A model generated the notes under the pieces. The model worked only from the letters and a program-made list of their open reading frames with translations, was not told the DNA's origin and did not search any database. Of a stretch of DNA of 40,652 bases, positions 3,506 to 40,652 are shown in pieces; position 1 is the first letter of the stretch, and every line of letters begins with the position of its first letter. The translations under genes were made by a program, and so were the position numbers. Source of the DNA: Clostridia bacterium (GTDB lineage: Bacteria; Bacillota; Clostridia; Christensenellales; Pumilibacteraceae); contig JAGAPA010000087.1 in NCBI GenBank assembly GCA_017623455.1, positions 1-40,652 on the forward strand. Direction: 5' to 3'.

Positions 3506-4786
3506 TTATTCTTCGTCTTCGCTTTCTTTGGTTACGGTTATCTTGACCTCGTTTACACGGGTTTCGGATGCGTCGGTAATCTCAATTTCGAGGTTTTTGA
3601 AAGTGAATTTTTCGCCAACGGTGGGGATCTTATCCATTTGCTCGGTAACAAATCCGCCAACGGTGGTCGCATCGACACGTTCTTCCTCGTCGTTTTCGTT
3701 AAGCGTGATGTCCACGATATCCAAAAATTCTTCTAAGTTCTGCTCACCTGCAACCACGTACTCGGTATCGGATATCTTTTTGCAAAGCTCCTCTACTGCA
3801 TCGTGCTCGTCGTAAATTTCGCCGACAAGTTCCTCAAGAACGTCTTCGAGCGTTACGATACCCATTGTACCGCCAAACTCGTCCACAACTATTGCAAGAT
3901 GTACTTTGTTGTGCTGAATCTCGCGGAGCACGGAAGATATTTTCATGCTTGACGGTACGCAAAGCGTTTTTTGAATGATTTTGCTGATATCGCTCTCGCC
4001 GTCGTGCATGAATTTGTAAAAGTCTTTTTCGTGAATGATACCCACGATATTATCTATCGTATCCTTGTATACGGGCAAACGCGAATATCCGCTCTCTATG
4101 TACGTGTTATATATTTCCTCGTTATTATCCTCGATATCCACCGCAACAACGTTAACGCGGGGAATCATGATATCAATAACCTCGCTATCCTCAAACTCGA
4201 TTGCAGAGCGGATAAGTTCGGACTCGTGAGCTTCGATCTCGCCCTCGTTTTCGGCATTTTCTACAATGTTGATAAGCTCTTCTTCGGTGTACGACGCTTC
4301 TTTTTTAAATCTGAAAATCTTACCCATAAGCTTTTTCCAACCCGAGAAAACAAGGTTGAAGGGGAAAAGCACGTAATAACAAAATACAATGAACGGGTAA
4401 AAGCCCATAGCTGCCTTTTCGGGACGTTCTTTCGCAATGGTCTTGGGTGTAATCTCGCCAAAAATAAGCACAACAACAGTTACAACAACGGTAGAAACAG
4501 TGTTTGCCACGTCGTTGTTTGCTATAAGCGATGAAAACAAGATCGTACCGAGAGTTGCGCCGGTAATATTTACGATATTGTTTCCGATAAGTATTGTAGA
4601 AAGTATTCTTTCGTAGCGGTCTAAAAATTTGAGAACCTTTCCGGCTCTCTCTTCTCCGTCGTCAGCCATTGCCTGAAGTCTTGCCTTTTGCGCGGTAGAA
4701 AAAGCCGTTTCGGAGGCGGAAAACATTCCCGACAATATAACCATAACCAATAATGAGACCAGTACTACTATGTCGCCAACTTCCAT
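3506..4786 (-). CDS. CNNM/CBS/CorC family membrane protein (TlyC/hemolysin-like)
   Basis: The 426-aa protein has the standard three-part layout. A DUF21/CNNM membrane domain covers about residues 1-190, with four hydrophobic segments and the SASETAFS motif near residue 25. A CBS pair covers about 200-330, and a C-terminal CorC_HlyC domain about 340-420. Family members act in divalent-cation (Mg2+, Co2+) transport or homeostasis; the old name hemolysin is not supported as a function. The AGGAG is 14 nt from the ATG, longer than usual, but no better start is seen. Upstream is an 89-nt structured leader. The gene is convergent with the XRE gene and appears monocistronic. Confidence 0.9.
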   Translation of the reverse strand: MEVGDIVVLVSLLVMVILSGMFSASETAFSTAQKARLQAMADDGEERAGKVLKFLDRYERILSTILIGNNIVNITGATLGTILFSSLIANNDVANTVSTVVVTVVVLIFGEITPKTIAKERPEKAAMGFYPFIVFCYYVLFPFNLVFSGWKKLMGKIFRFKKEASYTEEELINIVENAENEGEIEAHESELIRSAIEFEDSEVIDIMIPRVNVVAVDIEDNNEEIYNTYIESGYSRLPVYKDTIDNIVGIIHEKDFYKFMHDGESDISKIIQKTLCVPSSMKISSVLREIQHNKVHLAIVVDEFGGTMGIVTLEDVLEELVGEIYDEHDAVEELCKKISDTEYVVAGEQNLEEFLDIVDITLNENDEEERVDATTVGGFVTEQMDKIPTVGEKFTFKNLEIEITDASETRVNEVKITVTKESEDEE

Positions 4787-35269: not shown

Positions 35270-35317
35270 AAAATGCACGAAAATCTCATATACGTATACA
35301 AGTTTTCCGTGCATTTT
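35270..35317 (-). terminator. Terminator closing the AAA+/radical-SAM cassette
   Basis: AAAATGCACG (35270-35279) pairs with CGTGCATTTT (35308-35317), extended by AAAA/TTTT with one bulge. T-run on the minus strand follows the stem. It is about 60 bp after the radical-SAM gene stop. Confidence 0.8.
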
Positions 35318-35376
35318 TTGCTTTGTTAAGTAGCAATGGATTAGATTAAACAGTATTATTCTTTAACTTTATACCA

Positions 35377-35964
35377 CTAATGCTCCTCGTTCGTTTTTAT
35401 AATTTCTTTTAGCAATTGCTCAAATTCATCAGTTCTAAAACCACGTGATTGCATTACACCATCCTCGCTCAGGCGTAATATCGCAACGGTTTTCCCGTCT
35501 TTAATTTTATAGTTTGAGTATTTTCCTTTATGTACATACACTCTTTGATTTGTTGACCCTCTAAACTGAAGATAAATATTACGTTTGTCTTCTATATATC
35601 TCCCCGACACCACTATATCAGACAGATTCCATATCTTTCTTTGAATACTGTTTAATTCTTTATAAAGATATCCCGTAAAAAGAACTACAGTCTTTCCATT
35701 AGCCTTTAACGTTTTAACAAACCCATATAAACCTTCGGCTTGATCCAACGGTTCTCCGCCATGCAAGGTAACACCATCAGTGTCCATACAAAGCTTAACA
35801 AGTTCTGCAGTTGATATGTTTTTTCCAACACCAAACTCCCATAGGTGTTGATTAACACACCCTTTACATCTCAACGAACAACCTTGTGTAAACAAGAGCA
35901 ACCGCTTACCGGGACCGAACAAATGCTCATTTTCTTCATACGAATACGTTCTATAGTTAATCAT
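35377..35964 (-). CDS. NrdG-like radical-SAM / 4Fe-4S single-cluster activating protein
   Basis: The 195-aa protein starts with the activase layout GPGKRLLLFTQGCSLRCKGC: the radical-SAM CX3CX2C cluster ligands are C29, C33 and C36, and the SAM-contacting GGEP is at 69-72. Length and fold fit glycyl-radical activases such as NrdG. No glycyl-radical enzyme or class III ribonucleotide reductase (nrdD) is next to it, and the neighbours are a DUF2997 protein and AAA+ cassette genes, so its target may be one of those proteins. Its ATG overlaps the DUF2997 stop by 8 bp. Last gene before the cassette terminator. Confidence 0.88.
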   Translation of the reverse strand: MINYRTYSYEENEHLFGPGKRLLLFTQGCSLRCKGCVNQHLWEFGVGKNISTAELVKLCMDTDGVTLHGGEPLDQAEGLYGFVKTLKANGKTVVLFTGYLYKELNSIQRKIWNLSDIVVSGRYIEDKRNIYLQFRGSTNQRVYVHKGKYSNYKIKDGKTVAILRLSEDGVMQSRGFRTDEFEQLLKEIIKTNEEH

Positions 35965-36160
35965 TCTTAACCTTCACTTTCGTATCGTTAGAAATCTTTT
36001 CCTGAAAATATTCATTTTTTTTCTTGCGAGTAACATTGCGTGCAATATCTTTCATTAACCTATCCAGCTCTGTAACACACTCTGTACCAACAAACCCATC
36101 TGTAGTTGCATGTATTTGTCCATCCTCAAAGACATCTATTGTTATTTTCTTTTCTTCCAT
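35957..36160 (-). CDS. DUF2997 small protein
   Basis: A 67-aa protein of the DUF2997 type: beta strand KKITIDVFEDGQIHATTDGF, then GTECVTELDRLMKDI with the conserved cysteine (C29) after a glycine, then a basic lysine-rich tail. From what I recall, DUF2997 genes occur beside ycf46-like ATPases and DUF1257/Ycf35-like genes. Its start overlaps the upstream stop by one base (TAATG) and its stop overlaps the radical-SAM start, so it is translationally coupled on both sides. It could be a small carrier or substrate with a modified cysteine, by inference only. Confidence 0.8.
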   Translation of the reverse strand: MEEKKITIDVFEDGQIHATTDGFVGTECVTELDRLMKDIARNVTRKKKNEYFQEKISNDTKVKVKND

Positions 36161-36918
36161 TAATCATTCCTCACCAATACCAACTGAATCTGCTTATCAA
36201 CTTGCTTTTTCTGAACAGTATAACCCATTTTTTTAGCTCTATCTGCGAGCAGTTCAATAGTTCCATTTTGAACATGTTTCTTTATTTGACAAGTTTCTCT
36301 CCTGATATCAGATAAAAACTTTTGCAATTTTTCTTCAACCCTGTATCTATCGGATTCCACTCCTTGCGACTCATTATCAACAAATGTTTCTTTACCATCG
36401 ATAGACACAAAGCCCTCTCTCTTTATCTCCCTAATAAAGGACACCAGCTCTAAATCCGACAGATATCTATTGCTTAAATCACTAAATAGCTGCTTGTTAT
36501 CTATATTTACAGCTTGTTGCAATATACTAAGATTTTTAGTGTAATCATAACTAACACCGCTTATTTTTAACAATCCCGTAACAATATCACCTATAATATA
36601 CGTATTTCCCCTCATTCCCTCAATCTTGATAGGTTTTATCTTCATTCCAAACCCATTCACTATATCTATCAAGTTAGGCGAAATCCTATATCTGTCATTA
36701 ACAATCAAACAATCACCAACATTATAGACATTCATATTCTTCAGGATTACGTTTAATTTATCCAATTTCATATCTAAACATAACGTAAGAGCCTCCTCTA
36801 TTGTTTTAACATCGTTTTTTGAGATGGTATTTATGGACACTTTAATATTTTGCACTGTAATTATAGGCTCATAAACATAGTCATCCCAACCATAATCGTC
36901 ATCATCTTCACAGCTCAT
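36160..36918 (-). CDS. Protein with Ycf35/DUF1257-like C-terminus
   Basis: The 252-aa protein has an acidic N-terminus (EDDDDYGWDD), then a region of strand-forming residues (about 20-120) with DCLIVNDRYRISPNL, and a middle helical part. The C-terminal 45 residues, HVQNGTIELLADRAKKMGY followed by TVQKKQVDKQIQLVLVR, match the end of DUF1257/Ycf35 proteins in layout (helix, Gly-Tyr turn, two strands). The rest is not recognisable, so the link to DUF1257 is partial. AAGGAGGT precedes the ATG. It is separated from the 617-aa gene by three bases. Confidence 0.65.
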   Translation of the reverse strand: MSCEDDDDYGWDDYVYEPIITVQNIKVSINTISKNDVKTIEEALTLCLDMKLDKLNVILKNMNVYNVGDCLIVNDRYRISPNLIDIVNGFGMKIKPIKIEGMRGNTYIIGDIVTGLLKISGVSYDYTKNLSILQQAVNIDNKQLFSDLSNRYLSDLELVSFIREIKREGFVSIDGKETFVDNESQGVESDRYRVEEKLQKFLSDIRRETCQIKKHVQNGTIELLADRAKKMGYTVQKKQVDKQIQLVLVRND

Positions 36919-36921
36919 ACT

Positions 36922-38775
36922 TTACCTCCTTGCTAAACACCTTATTTTAAATTTTTCTTGTATATGCTTTGTTTCGTCGTATTCTTTTAAATCTTCAATA
37001 ACAATATATTGCTGTCCTTCTTTTTCAAAGACTTTATAATCTTCAGGAATTTCCACCTTTAATAACCTTTCGACTATTAAAACTGTTTTGTTTAAAAACT
37101 CTTTAATCTTATAAAGATACTTAACAACAAACTCATTCAGCATCATTATTTTTGTCTGCTCTGTCTTTTCTATTACCTGACCAATTGAATCTTCGCTTAC
37201 AGAATTCTTATACTGTCCTGCAAGTATATCATTGCATTTTTGCAAAAATGCTTGCAATTCTTTATTGCCATGGTTAGACGCATTTCCTTCAAACCGTTTT
37301 TTTAGACCAAGCAAATCGCTGATTTTCTTTTCCAAAGTCTTTACACGACTTGTATTTTTGAGAACGTCTATCCCTTGTTCAATCAAGGCTTTCTTTTCAA
37401 CTACTTGACGTTGATATCCTGCAATTTCATCGTCAAATTTATCGAACTTCGTATCAGAATTTTCAGTATTGATTTCAGAAAACATTTGCTCACAATACGA
37501 TAAAAGCCTTAATTGTGTATCTTGCAATAAGTTAAGAAATTGCGAGTTCTTAGAATAGTATCTCTTATAGGTGTATTCATCTACTGCTTTAACAAGCCAT
37601 TTATACCAATCGTTTATTTCCGCAAAAACAAAACTCAAACCATCTTGTTCAGAAAACTCTCTGATTTCGTCAATAGCATTTACAAAATTAATCTTATACA
37701 CCTTTTTTATCTCTTTAGCTAACGATAAAATTGGCTCATAAATACAAGACAGTTTATATGTATCATCCTTTATTGGCGGAATAAGTGTAAATTGATATTC
37801 CACACGTTTTGCTACCGCCGAATACTCATTATGCTTATTACAGATTGTCGCATCAAAAACATTGTTCACAAAGTCATCCATTGTAGGAATAACTTGACTT
37901 ATTTTGATTTGGTGAGAATCACCAATATTTAATTTTTGAATTTTACCGTTAATGCAAACATAGTAATTCCCAACAAGGTCTGCAGAAAGCACCTTATCAT
38001 TCAAGTAGCAACTCTTAAACAGTTTTCCAAAACAAGAAAAGGTGTCTTTTATGGGGTAAGTTGCATATATGTCATTTTTGAGAACCCTAAGAGAAAACAG
38101 TGCGTTATATCCATTATTCAAAAACACCCCACTGCCCACATAATCACTCACAAGCAGTGTTACGCCCATTTCTTTTGTCCAATCAAGGATTTGTTTTGAA
38201 AAGGCTTTTTCGGACACTACGTAGTATATTTGTTCGCAACATTGTTTTTTAGCCTCGGATATAAGCTTTGTATAATCACTGTCACCGTTTTTATCCATAA
38301 AGAAAACAGATTTATTGCTCTTAAAAAACTCATAGCTTGCAGATACCTGCTTATTATTAAAATAAACGTTATCTATAGTATCATCTACCTGAATAATGTC
38401 CGTATCAAGAACAACCTTGATATTATTACGCCCAACCACTCCTATATAGCTAAAATTAACAGTTTCGTCAACTTCAACTTTATTAAAGTGCAGGTCAGAG
38501 TACGATTTCAGCAAGCCTTCGTTTTTTACAATTATATTGAGTGTTATATATTTGTTTACCCACTTAAGCTCCGCAACAATTACACTTGGTATACAAACTT
38601 CTGAAAGAATAATATTTACAGTATTGGAAAACGTTATGGATGAAACCAAATCTACAAAATCCAACTGTTGAAATGAATAATTAACAGCATTGACAGAATT
38701 AAACGGCGTAAAAAGTGTCCAATAATTTTCAAAAATATTATTCTTTGTTATATTAATTATTTTATTTTCTATCAT
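36922..38775 (-). CDS. 617-aa protein of unknown function in the AAA+ cassette
   Basis: No family was recognised. Residues 1-140 are strand-rich with many Val, Ile and Asn (short repeats of VNIILSE and TLNIIVKN type). Residues 155-245 look Rossmann-like: SVFFMDKNGDSDYTKLISEA, then QIYYVVSEKAFSKQILDW and MGVTLLVSDYVGSG. A middle region of about 250-420 follows, then a coiled coil (about 455-545) with repeated Lys/Glu/Leu heptads and a C-terminal helical bundle with EYDETKHIQEKF. There is no Walker motif, no signal peptide and no membrane segment. Stop-to-start distances to neighbours are 3 bp on both sides, so it is an integral operon member. It is strongly AT-rich compared with the rest of the window. 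Confidence 0.85.
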   Translation of the reverse strand: MIENKIINITKNNIFENYWTLFTPFNSVNAVNYSFQQLDFVDLVSSITFSNTVNIILSEVCIPSVIVAELKWVNKYITLNIIVKNEGLLKSYSDLHFNKVEVDETVNFSYIGVVGRNNIKVVLDTDIIQVDDTIDNVYFNNKQVSASYEFFKSNKSVFFMDKNGDSDYTKLISEAKKQCCEQIYYVVSEKAFSKQILDWTKEMGVTLLVSDYVGSGVFLNNGYNALFSLRVLKNDIYATYPIKDTFSCFGKLFKSCYLNDKVLSADLVGNYYVCINGKIQKLNIGDSHQIKISQVIPTMDDFVNNVFDATICNKHNEYSAVAKRVEYQFTLIPPIKDDTYKLSCIYEPILSLAKEIKKVYKINFVNAIDEIREFSEQDGLSFVFAEINDWYKWLVKAVDEYTYKRYYSKNSQFLNLLQDTQLRLLSYCEQMFSEINTENSDTKFDKFDDEIAGYQRQVVEKKALIEQGIDVLKNTSRVKTLEKKISDLLGLKKRFEGNASNHGNKELQAFLQKCNDILAGQYKNSVSEDSIGQVIEKTEQTKIMMLNEFVVKYLYKIKEFLNKTVLIVERLLKVEIPEDYKVFEKEGQQYIVIEDLKEYDETKHIQEKFKIRCLARR

Positions 38776-38778
38776 AGT

Positions 38779-40374
38779 TTACTTCTTCTTGCTTATAAAG
38801 GGATTTGAATATTCCTGTTGAAGTCTGGGTACTTCTTCCCCAAGCTCCTTAACTTCTTCGGGCTTTTCACTACTTGCCATTCTTGCACGCTGTTCTGACC
38901 ATTTACGAAGATTAGCGATTGTTTCTGCCATAGTTCTTGAAAGCGGACTCGTTGCATCAATACAGTCAAGAAGATTCTTCATTTCCAAATCCTTTTGACC
39001 GTTTGCATACGCATTAAACAAGGCTTCGTTAACAACCTCTTCTATTTCCGCTCCGGAGAAGCCTTCACTTGCTCTTACAAGCTTTTGCATATCAAGACCG
39101 AGAGTTTTTGCATCTCGACCTTTGTTGTTAAGGTGAATATTGAAGATATTTTCTCTTTCCTTTGCGGAAGGCAAGTCTACAAAGAAAATTTCGTCAAATC
39201 TACCTTTACGGAGAAGCTCGGGCGGAAGCGAACTAATATCATTTGCTGTTGCTACAACAAATACAGGTTCTTTCTTTTCTTGCATCCAGGTAAGGAACGT
39301 TCCAAACACACGTGCACTCGTACCACCGTCAGTTCTACCACTGCTTTGCGATCCGCTCAAACCCTTTTCAATCTCATCAATCCAAAGAACACAAGGGGAA
39401 ATTGTTTTTGCAACGTCAAGTGCATAACGAATATTTCTTTCAGACTCACCTACAATGCCGCCGAACACCTTGCCCAAGTCAAAACGTAAAAGCGGGAATT
39501 TCCACTCATTTGCAATGGCTTTTGCTGTAAGAGATTTACCACAACCCGGAACACCGAGAAGCAACACTCCACGAGGAGTATTCAAACCGAAATCCTTTGC
39601 AGAATCGCTATAAGCATTTCCACGTTTATGTATCCACTCTTTAAGATTCTCAAGACCGCCAACGTTCGTTAAATACTCCTTTGGATGGAAGTATTCCAAT
39701 AGTCCGCTCTTCTTGATTATTTGCTCCTTTTCGCTGATAATAAGAGGAATTTCCTCTTCAGTAAGCTTTCGGTTCTGAATGATAGCTTTTGCAAAAGCAA
39801 GGCGTGCTTCCATTACGGTAAGACCAAGAGCCGACTCTAAAAGCTTTGAAGTAATTTCGCTTTCAACACAATACTCGTCATATTGCTTAACTACGCTGTC
39901 TGCTATAATTTCAATCGTGTCACGGTCAGGCAAATCAACCTCAATAACGGGAAGCTCTTTTGAAAGCTCTTCCGGAACAAACTTGCTCGGAGAACTCAAA
40001 ATAATAGCCTTTTTGTAGCTTCCCTCATAATTCTGTGGACGCATCATTTCACGCAAATACCTTATATTGGTAGGATGATTAGTTTCGCTGTAAGGATGAA
40101 AATCTTCCAAAACGAGAAGCATATCATTTTCTGCTTTTATATAGTAGTCTAATACTTGGGGAAGAGTAATACAATCGGGATTAATCGACTTAAACCCATT
40201 GCCAGCCCAAACCTTTAGTCCCGAAACACTACTCCACGAATACCAATCAACACCCAAATCTTCGGCAACGCAGTTGGCAAAACCGTGTACACGTTCCCAC
40301 TCAAACGAAGCAACTTCAACGACTTTTGCTCCTGCTTTAATTAAAACTTCTAATTCTTCTTCGTAATATCTCAT
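38779..40374 (-). CDS. Ycf46-like AAA+ ATPase
   Basis: The 531-aa protein has an N-terminal domain (about 1-215) with a degenerate P-loop fold and a LLVLEDFHPY strand (86-95), then a complete classical AAA+ module: Walker A GVPGCGKS (274-281), GGIVGESE pore-loop region (305-312), Walker B VLWIDEIE (329-336), arginine finger RKGRFDE (389-395) and sensor 2 GFSGAEI (438-444). This matches cyanobacterial/chloroplast Ycf46-type ATPases in layout and motifs. It probably remodels a protein partner encoded alongside. RBS AAGGAGAATAATT precedes ATG. It starts 14 bp after the preceding partial gene and ends 3 bp before the 617-aa gene. Confidence 0.88.
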   Translation of the reverse strand: MRYYEEELEVLIKAGAKVVEVASFEWERVHGFANCVAEDLGVDWYSWSSVSGLKVWAGNGFKSINPDCITLPQVLDYYIKAENDMLLVLEDFHPYSETNHPTNIRYLREMMRPQNYEGSYKKAIILSSPSKFVPEELSKELPVIEVDLPDRDTIEIIADSVVKQYDEYCVESEITSKLLESALGLTVMEARLAFAKAIIQNRKLTEEEIPLIISEKEQIIKKSGLLEYFHPKEYLTNVGGLENLKEWIHKRGNAYSDSAKDFGLNTPRGVLLLGVPGCGKSLTAKAIANEWKFPLLRFDLGKVFGGIVGESERNIRYALDVAKTISPCVLWIDEIEKGLSGSQSSGRTDGGTSARVFGTFLTWMQEKKEPVFVVATANDISSLPPELLRKGRFDEIFFVDLPSAKERENIFNIHLNNKGRDAKTLGLDMQKLVRASEGFSGAEIEEVVNEALFNAYANGQKDLEMKNLLDCIDATSPLSRTMAETIANLRKWSEQRARMASSEKPEEVKELGEEVPRLQQEYSNPFISKKK

Positions 40375-40388
40375 AATTATTCTCCTTA

Positions 40389-40652
40389 TTAAAATTCCCT
40401 AACAGCACATTTAACTTTATCGGTTGACTCAATTATTTCTCCATTTCGATTTTCAGCTTCTACCTTGACATAATAATCATAGCCGCTATGCTTTGGCGAA
40501 GAATATCCACCCCCAACAACGTGTACAGTCGATGCCGCCGCTGCCGAAATAGTTCGTCTTGTAACTCCATCTACTGCCGCTAAACCCGTAAAAGTGCAAT
40601 ACAATTCCGTTCTCTCGTTTATACGTTTTGAAATTGCTTGTTCATTGATATA
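40389..40652 (-). CDS. Unidentified gene, 5' end beyond the window
   Basis: The frame stays open from the window edge to the stop at 40389: 87 visible residues, ending NGEIIESTDKVKCAVREF. A TTG at 40602-40604 could be read as a start, but no ribosome site precedes it and the frame continues upstream without a stop, so the gene is longer than the window. The visible part is strand-rich with GGGYSS and SGYDYYVKVEAENRNGE. It precedes the AAA+ gene by 14 bp on the same strand, so it is the first seen gene of the cassette. No family was recognised. Confidence 0.7.
   Translation of the reverse strand, partial: YINEQAISKRINERTELYCTFTGLAAVDGVTRRTISAAAASTVHVVGGGYSSPKHSGYDYYVKVEAENRNGEIIESTDKVKCAVREF

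Follow-up and report, generated by a model that had tools for sequence, protein, structure and literature searches.

A candidate helicase-less derivative of a widespread AAA+/DUF1257/DUF2997/radical-SAM operon in a Clostridia bacterium

The Ycf46, Ycf35 (DUF1257) and DUF2997 proteins are known from plastids and cyanobacteria, and no molecular mechanism is given for them in the accessible parts of the open literature. Here, a cassette of six genes was analysed at the end of a 40,652-nucleotide stretch of DNA from a Clostridia bacterium of the gut (assembly GCA_017623455.1, contig JAGAPA010000087.1). The stretch, referred to as the window, is one whole contig. The cassette encodes an AAA+ ATPase, a 617-aa protein (Y), a 252-aa DUF1257-like protein, a DUF2997 protein, a radical S-adenosylmethionine protein (rSAM) and part of an FN3-like protein. 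In the cyanobacterial duf2997-ycf35-fed7 cluster DUF2997 likewise adjoins DUF1257, whereas a ferredoxin gene is found where the window has the rSAM gene, and no Y or FN3-like gene is named in the accessible part of the source (PMC4284462). The accessible parts of other open PMC texts, including PMC10853773, PMC10250203 and PMC11291487, contain no description of this operon; subscription papers were outside the scope of the survey.

Other described systems resemble the cassette or its relatives in single components. Mokosh has a PLD-like domain according to the available part of PMC10952713. The helicases of longer relatives of the cassette (the full form, defined as a chain with a helicase and either Y or another protein, X) matched the PADLOC MkoA model with E-values of 5e-80 (L024) and 9e-82 (L032), and that of the Bacteroidetes locus L040 with 1e-113. 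Of the two Bacteroidetes nuclease-position proteins tested against PADLOC, that of L048 matched MkoB (2e-8) and that of L040 gave no match. Unlike Mokosh, the operon adds AAA+, DUF1257, DUF2997 and rSAM genes, and the window cassette has neither the MkoA-like helicase present in the full form nor a recognisable nuclease. The type II/III CoCoNuT systems (CnuH, and CnuE with winged helix-turn-helix and nuclease domains) also combine a UPF1-like helicase with coiled-coil/nuclease-type partners, but these are McrB/McrC-type GTPase systems with no rSAM core described in the accessible text (PMC11090510); no McrB was found among the proteins scanned here, and no McrB-type GTPase scored over the cut-off among the cassette proteins. 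In the FtsH ternary vWA-MoxR conflict systems a radical-SAM protein of an AAA+ operon is proposed to modify a small peptide effector. These systems differ in their vWA/MoxR components, for which no search was made here, and DUF2997 and DUF1257 do not appear in the available part of PMC7159879. The cassette rSAM resembles the PflA/NrdG glycyl-radical activases, having the CxxxCxxC and GGE motifs and similarity to PFL-AE (3c8f, E 4e-10). However, it scored below the NCBIfam cut-offs for NrdG (TIGR02491; 103.7 of 126.1 bits) and PFLA equivalogs (57.8 of 231.75 bits), and no glycyl-radical enzyme was recognised among the cassette proteins. IetAS and SGI1 sgiAT share an AAA ATPase of the SpoVK/Ycf46 class, but the cassette AAA is only distantly alike (100 bits against an NCBIfam IetA cut-off of 510) and no subtilase was found among the cassette proteins.

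We interpret the cassette as an acquired, helicase-less derivative of a widespread operon which is often situated near defence genes and most likely acts against phages or plasmids; the probability of this interpretation is estimated as about 0.47. Ycf46, Ycf35 and DUF2997 would then constitute an operon core common to bacteria and archaea, giving three little-known families a testable role and partners. The operon would be a possible new defence system, and the window indicates that its core can exist without the helicase.

The recurrence of the operon is well supported. The set of loci consisted of the best 80 of 581 confirmed AAA matches in genomes and of 31 viral contigs, the open reading frames (ORFs) of which were profiled; after L091 was dropped as a near-copy, 110 AAA loci were counted. 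The full form was detected in 20 of these, from bacteria and archaea, with near-copies among them (L032/L033 and L030/L090). Its gene set comprises AAA, a superfamily 1 UPF1-like helicase (two were tested and carry Pfam AAA_11/AAA_12), X, Y, DUF2997, a DUF1257-like gene and rSAM. AAA is first, last or within the chain (L018), and the last three genes swap places. The count gave DUF1257 and DUF2997 for 19 of the 20 loci and rSAM for 17. Those counted without rSAM were L017 and L020, which are cut before it, and L044, in which all three genes lie beyond the distance limit; in the uncut full-form loci rSAM was present in 18 of 18. The order of the window, AAA-Y-DUF1257-DUF2997-rSAM, was found in six related loci, L010-L015 (the short form). 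L010-L012 are near-copies; the records of L011 and L012 end within the rSAM gene. Among the other 90 AAA loci, the six short forms included, the chain includes DUF1257 in 42, DUF2997 in 44 and rSAM in 28, and AAA stood alone in 43. Random variation of the neighbours around the ATPase was rejected by the count over the 110 loci. The original prediction had associated Ycf46 with DUF1257 and DUF2997 and had included the rSAM gene in the same operon; both claims agree with these counts, and the short-form rSAMs form one clade.

As an independent anchor, DUF2997 was searched with Pfam in 398 genomes of the phylum. It was detected in 8, in 7 of them over the cut-off. In the seven genomes other than that of the window, one of which (L147) is doubtful, AAA was adjacent to DUF2997 in four (in three of them only at about 1e-35), and DUF1257 was adjacent or fused in four and fused in three. 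The fusions are in single frames, L142 8394-8927 (weak DUF1257 part), L144 8168-8836 and L145 8091-8759, the latter two being near-copies, which suggests that DUF1257 and DUF2997 may act as one unit. The AAA/DUF1257/DUF2997 core is thus general; rSAM accompanies it regularly in the full/short clade and in Gastranaerophilales-type loci, and only here and there in other loci.

The features of the cassette and its surroundings are presented in Table 1. A recount of the ORFs gave six minus-strand genes in tandem with gaps of 14, 3 and 3 bp and overlaps of 1 and 8 bp, exactly as had been described. The mean guanine-cytosine (GC) content of the cassette was 0.355, compared with 0.429 in the first 35 kb of the contig (standard deviation 0.04, 500-bp windows), which confirms that the cassette is richer in AT than its neighbours. 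The GC of the single cassette genes was 0.315-0.41, and that of third codon positions 0.26-0.34, compared with 0.49 in the two neighbouring genes measured. A single terminator had been proposed at the end of the cassette. A strong hairpin is present there (-26.7 kcal/mol, z -5.8); it was absent from the output of a simple terminator scan.

Table 1. Coordinates of the cassette genes, of the continuing contig C30 and of the palindromes (G000, genome of the window; L132, site in the same-genus genome G669).
Feature	Position	Strand	Evidence or remark
FN3-like gene, 3' part, 5' cut by contig edge	40389-40652	-	
Ycf46/SpoVK-type AAA+ ATPase, 531 aa	38779-40374	-	Pfam AAA 4e-32
Y protein, 617 aa	36922-38775	-	coiled coil; no Pfam family
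252-aa protein, DUF1257 (Ycf35)-like C-terminal end and extra N-terminal region	36160-36918	-	profile comparison
DUF2997 protein, 67 aa	35957-36160	-	Pfam PF11211 28.9 bits
PflA/NrdG-like rSAM protein, 195 aa, CSLRCKGC	35377-35964	-	Fer4_12 6e-33
Long hairpin at 3' end of cassette, ATACGTAT-core palindrome	about 35270-35320 (palindrome 35278-35309)	.	folding energy
FN3-like gene, 5' part	G000:C30:1-228		rest of the 40389-40652 gene of the window
Coiled-coil and FN3-like gene, 160 aa	C30 238-720	-	
Gene with FN3-like C-terminus, 361 aa	C30 744-1829	-	
Gene for a 325-aa protein	C30 1842-2819	-	
ATACGTAT-core palindromes, site flanks	window 35278-35309; C30 (L131) 3535-3566; L132 6322-6369, 10991-11039		

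The AAA tree (103 rows, quick search, SH-aLRT support only) united five short-form rows in one clade (support 100, starred), nested with L016/L017 (97, starred) and with further full-form loci (95, starred). A Bacteroidetes group, with a helicase detected in L040, L048, L050, L053 and L060, was sister to these (98, starred). Since the short form is nested in the full-form clade, it would most simply have lost the helicase and X. No helicase match was found in the window's own genome, which is 77.6% complete, by a search that had no positive control, and this negative is therefore weak. In the rSAM tree seven short-form rows formed a clade (99, starred) inside a 14-row group (94, not starred). 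This group holds 6 of the 16 full-form rows; the others are placed elsewhere, with mostly open forks between. The descent of the short form is well supported. In the Bacteroidetes form, the DUF1257-like protein (hhalign 88.8%) is only weakly DUF2997-like in its C-terminal part (16%); the Cys loop is lacking in 8 of 8 such proteins, and no rSAM was detected by profile.

The comparison of the window with L010, L013 and L014 revealed 82-86% identity of AAA, 29-38% of Y and 29-36% of the 252-aa protein. The ATPase appears to be a rigid motor with fast-evolving partners. The alternative that AAA has recently swept and Y is old was rejected, because synonymous sites are saturated or nearly so in both genes between the window and its relatives. 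Between L010 and L012, AAA, Y and DUF1257 are nearly identical (synonymous divergence, dS, 0.02-0.08), yet the rSAMs share 75% identity and their dS is saturated, which may be due to recombination at the 3' end or to a mixed assembly.

The proposed acquisition of the cassette is well supported. Of 297 genomes of the order, 5 had an AAA match at E<=1e-60, as had 2 of 61 relatives; neither same-genus genome had one, and the Y profile matched 1 of 391 genomes of the class, that of the window itself. In the same-genus genome G669 both flanks are conserved (83-87%) and other genes occupy the site.

The DUF2997 protein scored 28.9 bits with PF11211 (cut-off 24.1), and the rSAM protein 114.5 bits with Fer4_12 (cut-off 22) in addition to its CxxxCxxC motif; with PF04055 it reached 26.9 of 29.5 bits, below the cut-off. 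The cysteines C29, C33 and C36 of rSAM were found in 50 of 50 sequences. In DUF2997, Gly22 and the previously noted cysteine, Cys28, were invariant in 70 of 70 sequences and Gly25 was kept in 68 of 70, near-copies being included and the sampling profile favouring the motif. The Gly/Cys loop was equally invariant in the 50 sequences with rSAM in the locus, the window copy included, and in the 20 in which no rSAM was seen, two of which (L017 and L020) end before the place of rSAM, while several come from short records. The DUF2997 cysteine is therefore probably not there only for rSAM, and the idea that rSAM exists only to modify it was rejected on the same ground.

The AAA+ ATPase has its AAA domain at residues 270-400 and a lid at 427-469; the N-terminal half resembles an AAA domain that has degenerated. 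The name Ycf46 follows the original prediction and is putative. AAA homologues at E<=1e-40 were detected on 664 of 72,556 plasmids, 570 of them typed conjugative and many enterobacterial. On the Treponema succinifaciens plasmid pTRESU01 (L121 9345-11500) an rSAM-AAA pair is situated amid VgrG/baseplate genes.

Y contains a coiled coil and a conserved C-terminal part which are common to the full-form Y. Short-form and full-form Y profiles with no shared rows aligned with hhalign at 96.6% (E 6e-10) over residues ~262-618. By itself, the full-form profile found L014 (1e-4) and L015 (3e-6), not the window copy. A mixed Y profile was weakly PLD-like, matching the PLD nuclease NucT (6ehi) with an E-value of 3e-4 over ~90 N-terminal positions; the HxKxxxxD motif was present in no Y of that test. 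The window Y (U617) had no match in phages, nor had the L028 Y in plasmids. For the L032 Y no match in viral contigs was confirmed; L090 and L091 hold Y, so the search reaches close kin only. X yielded nothing at E<=1 in a profile search of the PDB. X may be MIT_C/PLD-like (HDRY motif).

In Pfam the 617-aa protein matched no family and the 252-aa protein did not match DUF1257, and PF06868 (cut-off 22.2 bits) had no match in the window's genome. Nevertheless, the Ycf35/DUF1257-like C-terminus ascribed to the 252-aa protein obtained fair support: a DUF1257-like profile built without the short forms scored it with 21 bits. Pfam DUF1257 was over the cut-off in 7 of the 12 genomes or records tested, at profile-picked ORFs. 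A profile search of DUF1257 against the PDB gave nothing better than E 0.05. In the DUF1257-like proteins Ser2 was kept in 61 of 64 aligned rows. The N-terminus as called was Met-Ser in 50 of 64; among 835 other ORFs, 108 have Ser as second residue.

In all likelihood the operon extends upstream onto contig C30 of the same genome, with the rest of the FN3-like gene and three further whole genes, because the window end and the C30 start share 141 identical bp and homology to an L010 gene crosses the joint. The alignment of the 40389-40652 gene shares a W/Y/L pattern which may, weakly, be read as FN3. Among loci L001-L120, FN3-like genes were detected by profile only in the window's genome, L010-L013, L015 and L019. 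The 325-aa protein of C30 had no match in the plasmid collection; it may be HEPN-like.

The defence context was determined from the neighbourhoods of related loci. BrxC (L032), LmuB (L024), PD-T4-6 (L025) and PDC-M26A (L017) were found beside full-form loci, Dsr2 and PDC-S02 beside L040, and a PIN domain occupies the nuclease position of the Bacteroidetes-form locus L087. At E<=1e-15, PADLOC recorded 84 families in 69 flanking proteins and 10 in 70 control proteins. Judged from this genomic context, the full form likely acts in defence, and for the short form such a role is plausible.

Several results weigh against a defence role or against the kinship on which it depends. The comparison of 84 with 10 is a rough measure that counts families instead of proteins; of the 25 families shown, 22 are PD-T4-6 models, and each of these matches two proteins. 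The flank set included L027, L029 and L039, where no helicase was seen, and one protein inside the L044 operon. Of 10 flank proteins picked by hand, 5 gave no PADLOC match at 1e-8. At the locus itself, PADLOC was restricted to the six cassette and two C30 proteins, and its only matches there were weak or to the AAA domain. The cassette has no helicase or X, the parts nearest to known defence, and carries FN3-like genes instead, for which the Pfam fn3 match is weak (E 0.027, one homologue only). The Y homology is limited to the C-terminal ~60% of the window copy, and the lowest identity of 29% is barely higher than that of shuffled Y (22-26%). The match of the 252-aa protein to the DUF1257-like profile from which short forms were kept out (88.5%) covers ~30 C-terminal columns only. 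In the seven other genomes found by DUF2997 alone, rSAM was beside DUF2997 in 0 of 7. The core also occurs in other settings, viral contigs and, according to the accessible part of the source cited above, the cyanobacterial ferredoxin cluster, and AAA homologues are carried by phages and plasmids, one as an rSAM-AAA pair beside contractile-injection genes.

Three other explanations were considered. A protein-maturation or stress module, in which AAA+/DUF1257/DUF2997 remodels a metabolic or redox target activated by rSAM and the nearby defence genes would simply reflect a location on mobile islands, is possible though rather unlikely. It accords with the presence of DUF1257 in 42 and DUF2997 in 44 of the 90 loci outside the full form, with the clustering of duf2997 and ycf35 with a ferredoxin gene (PMC4284462, accessible part) and with the resemblance of rSAM to PflA/NrdG activases. 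However, the cassette is patchy, site-variable, AT-rich and absent from both same-genus genomes, and a Mokosh-like helicase is present in the nearest clades, in some of them next to defence genes. An AAA antitoxin related to SpoVK/Ycf46/Vps4 is described in SGI1 in the accessible part of PMC10954446, and by analogy with that antitoxin and its protease toxin the AAA and its small partners could restrain a toxic Y or 325-aa protein as an addiction island. The 570 conjugative among the 664 AAA-bearing plasmids are in line with this, but no protease or known toxin domain was over the cut-off in the cassette proteins scanned and AAA is far under the IetA cut-off; the explanation is considered improbable. 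It is highly improbable that the FN3-like proteins are structural parts of a phage-tail-like or contractile apparatus with AAA as its disassembly factor: the FN3-like genes and the pTRESU01 pair among VgrG/baseplate genes would agree with it, but no tail or baseplate family was over the cut-off in the cassette and short-form proteins scanned (some neighbours were unscanned), and no FN3-like gene was found in L014.

Under the preferred interpretation, a defence-associated derivative, the AAA+ ring would be the motor or remodeller and DUF1257 with DUF2997 its small adaptor. This adaptor would be activated or modified by the PflA-like rSAM as an enzyme specific to the system, with the Gly-x-x-Gly-x-x-Cys loop of DUF2997 as the most plausible site; we infer this radical step from family resemblance and invariant residues, as the defence role from context. 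Y, with its coiled coil, could act as scaffold or sensor. The AAA core of the full form would control the Mokosh-like helicase together with its partners; the short form would have FN3-like proteins in their place for recognition, and the 325-aa protein may be its effector. The Y and FN3-like parts may be diversifying. A more far-reaching proposal, which we consider improbable, casts DUF2997 as a miniature protein that either bears a radical (glycyl/thiyl) or is modified by one. Its loop would be charged by the PflA-like rSAM and the protein used or loaded by the AAA+ ring, in a prokaryotic immune module with a radical-licensed ATPase, FN3-like recognisers having replaced the helicase in the window form. 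If true, an immune module distributed over bacteria and archaea would have an ATPase licensed by radical chemistry.

The ATACGTAT-core palindromes were found on both sides of the variable site in both the window's genome and G669. With one mismatch allowed, 15, 14 and 1 were counted in three congeners; the hairpin at the cassette end is one of the 15 found in the window's genome. These hairpins are perhaps REP-like repeats or terminators marking an insertion hot spot, and the ones beside the site may function in termination and not as attachment sites. In G669 the site (L132 6399-11052) contains what look like a secreted protein of 1035 aa and two helix-turn-helix-like proteins.

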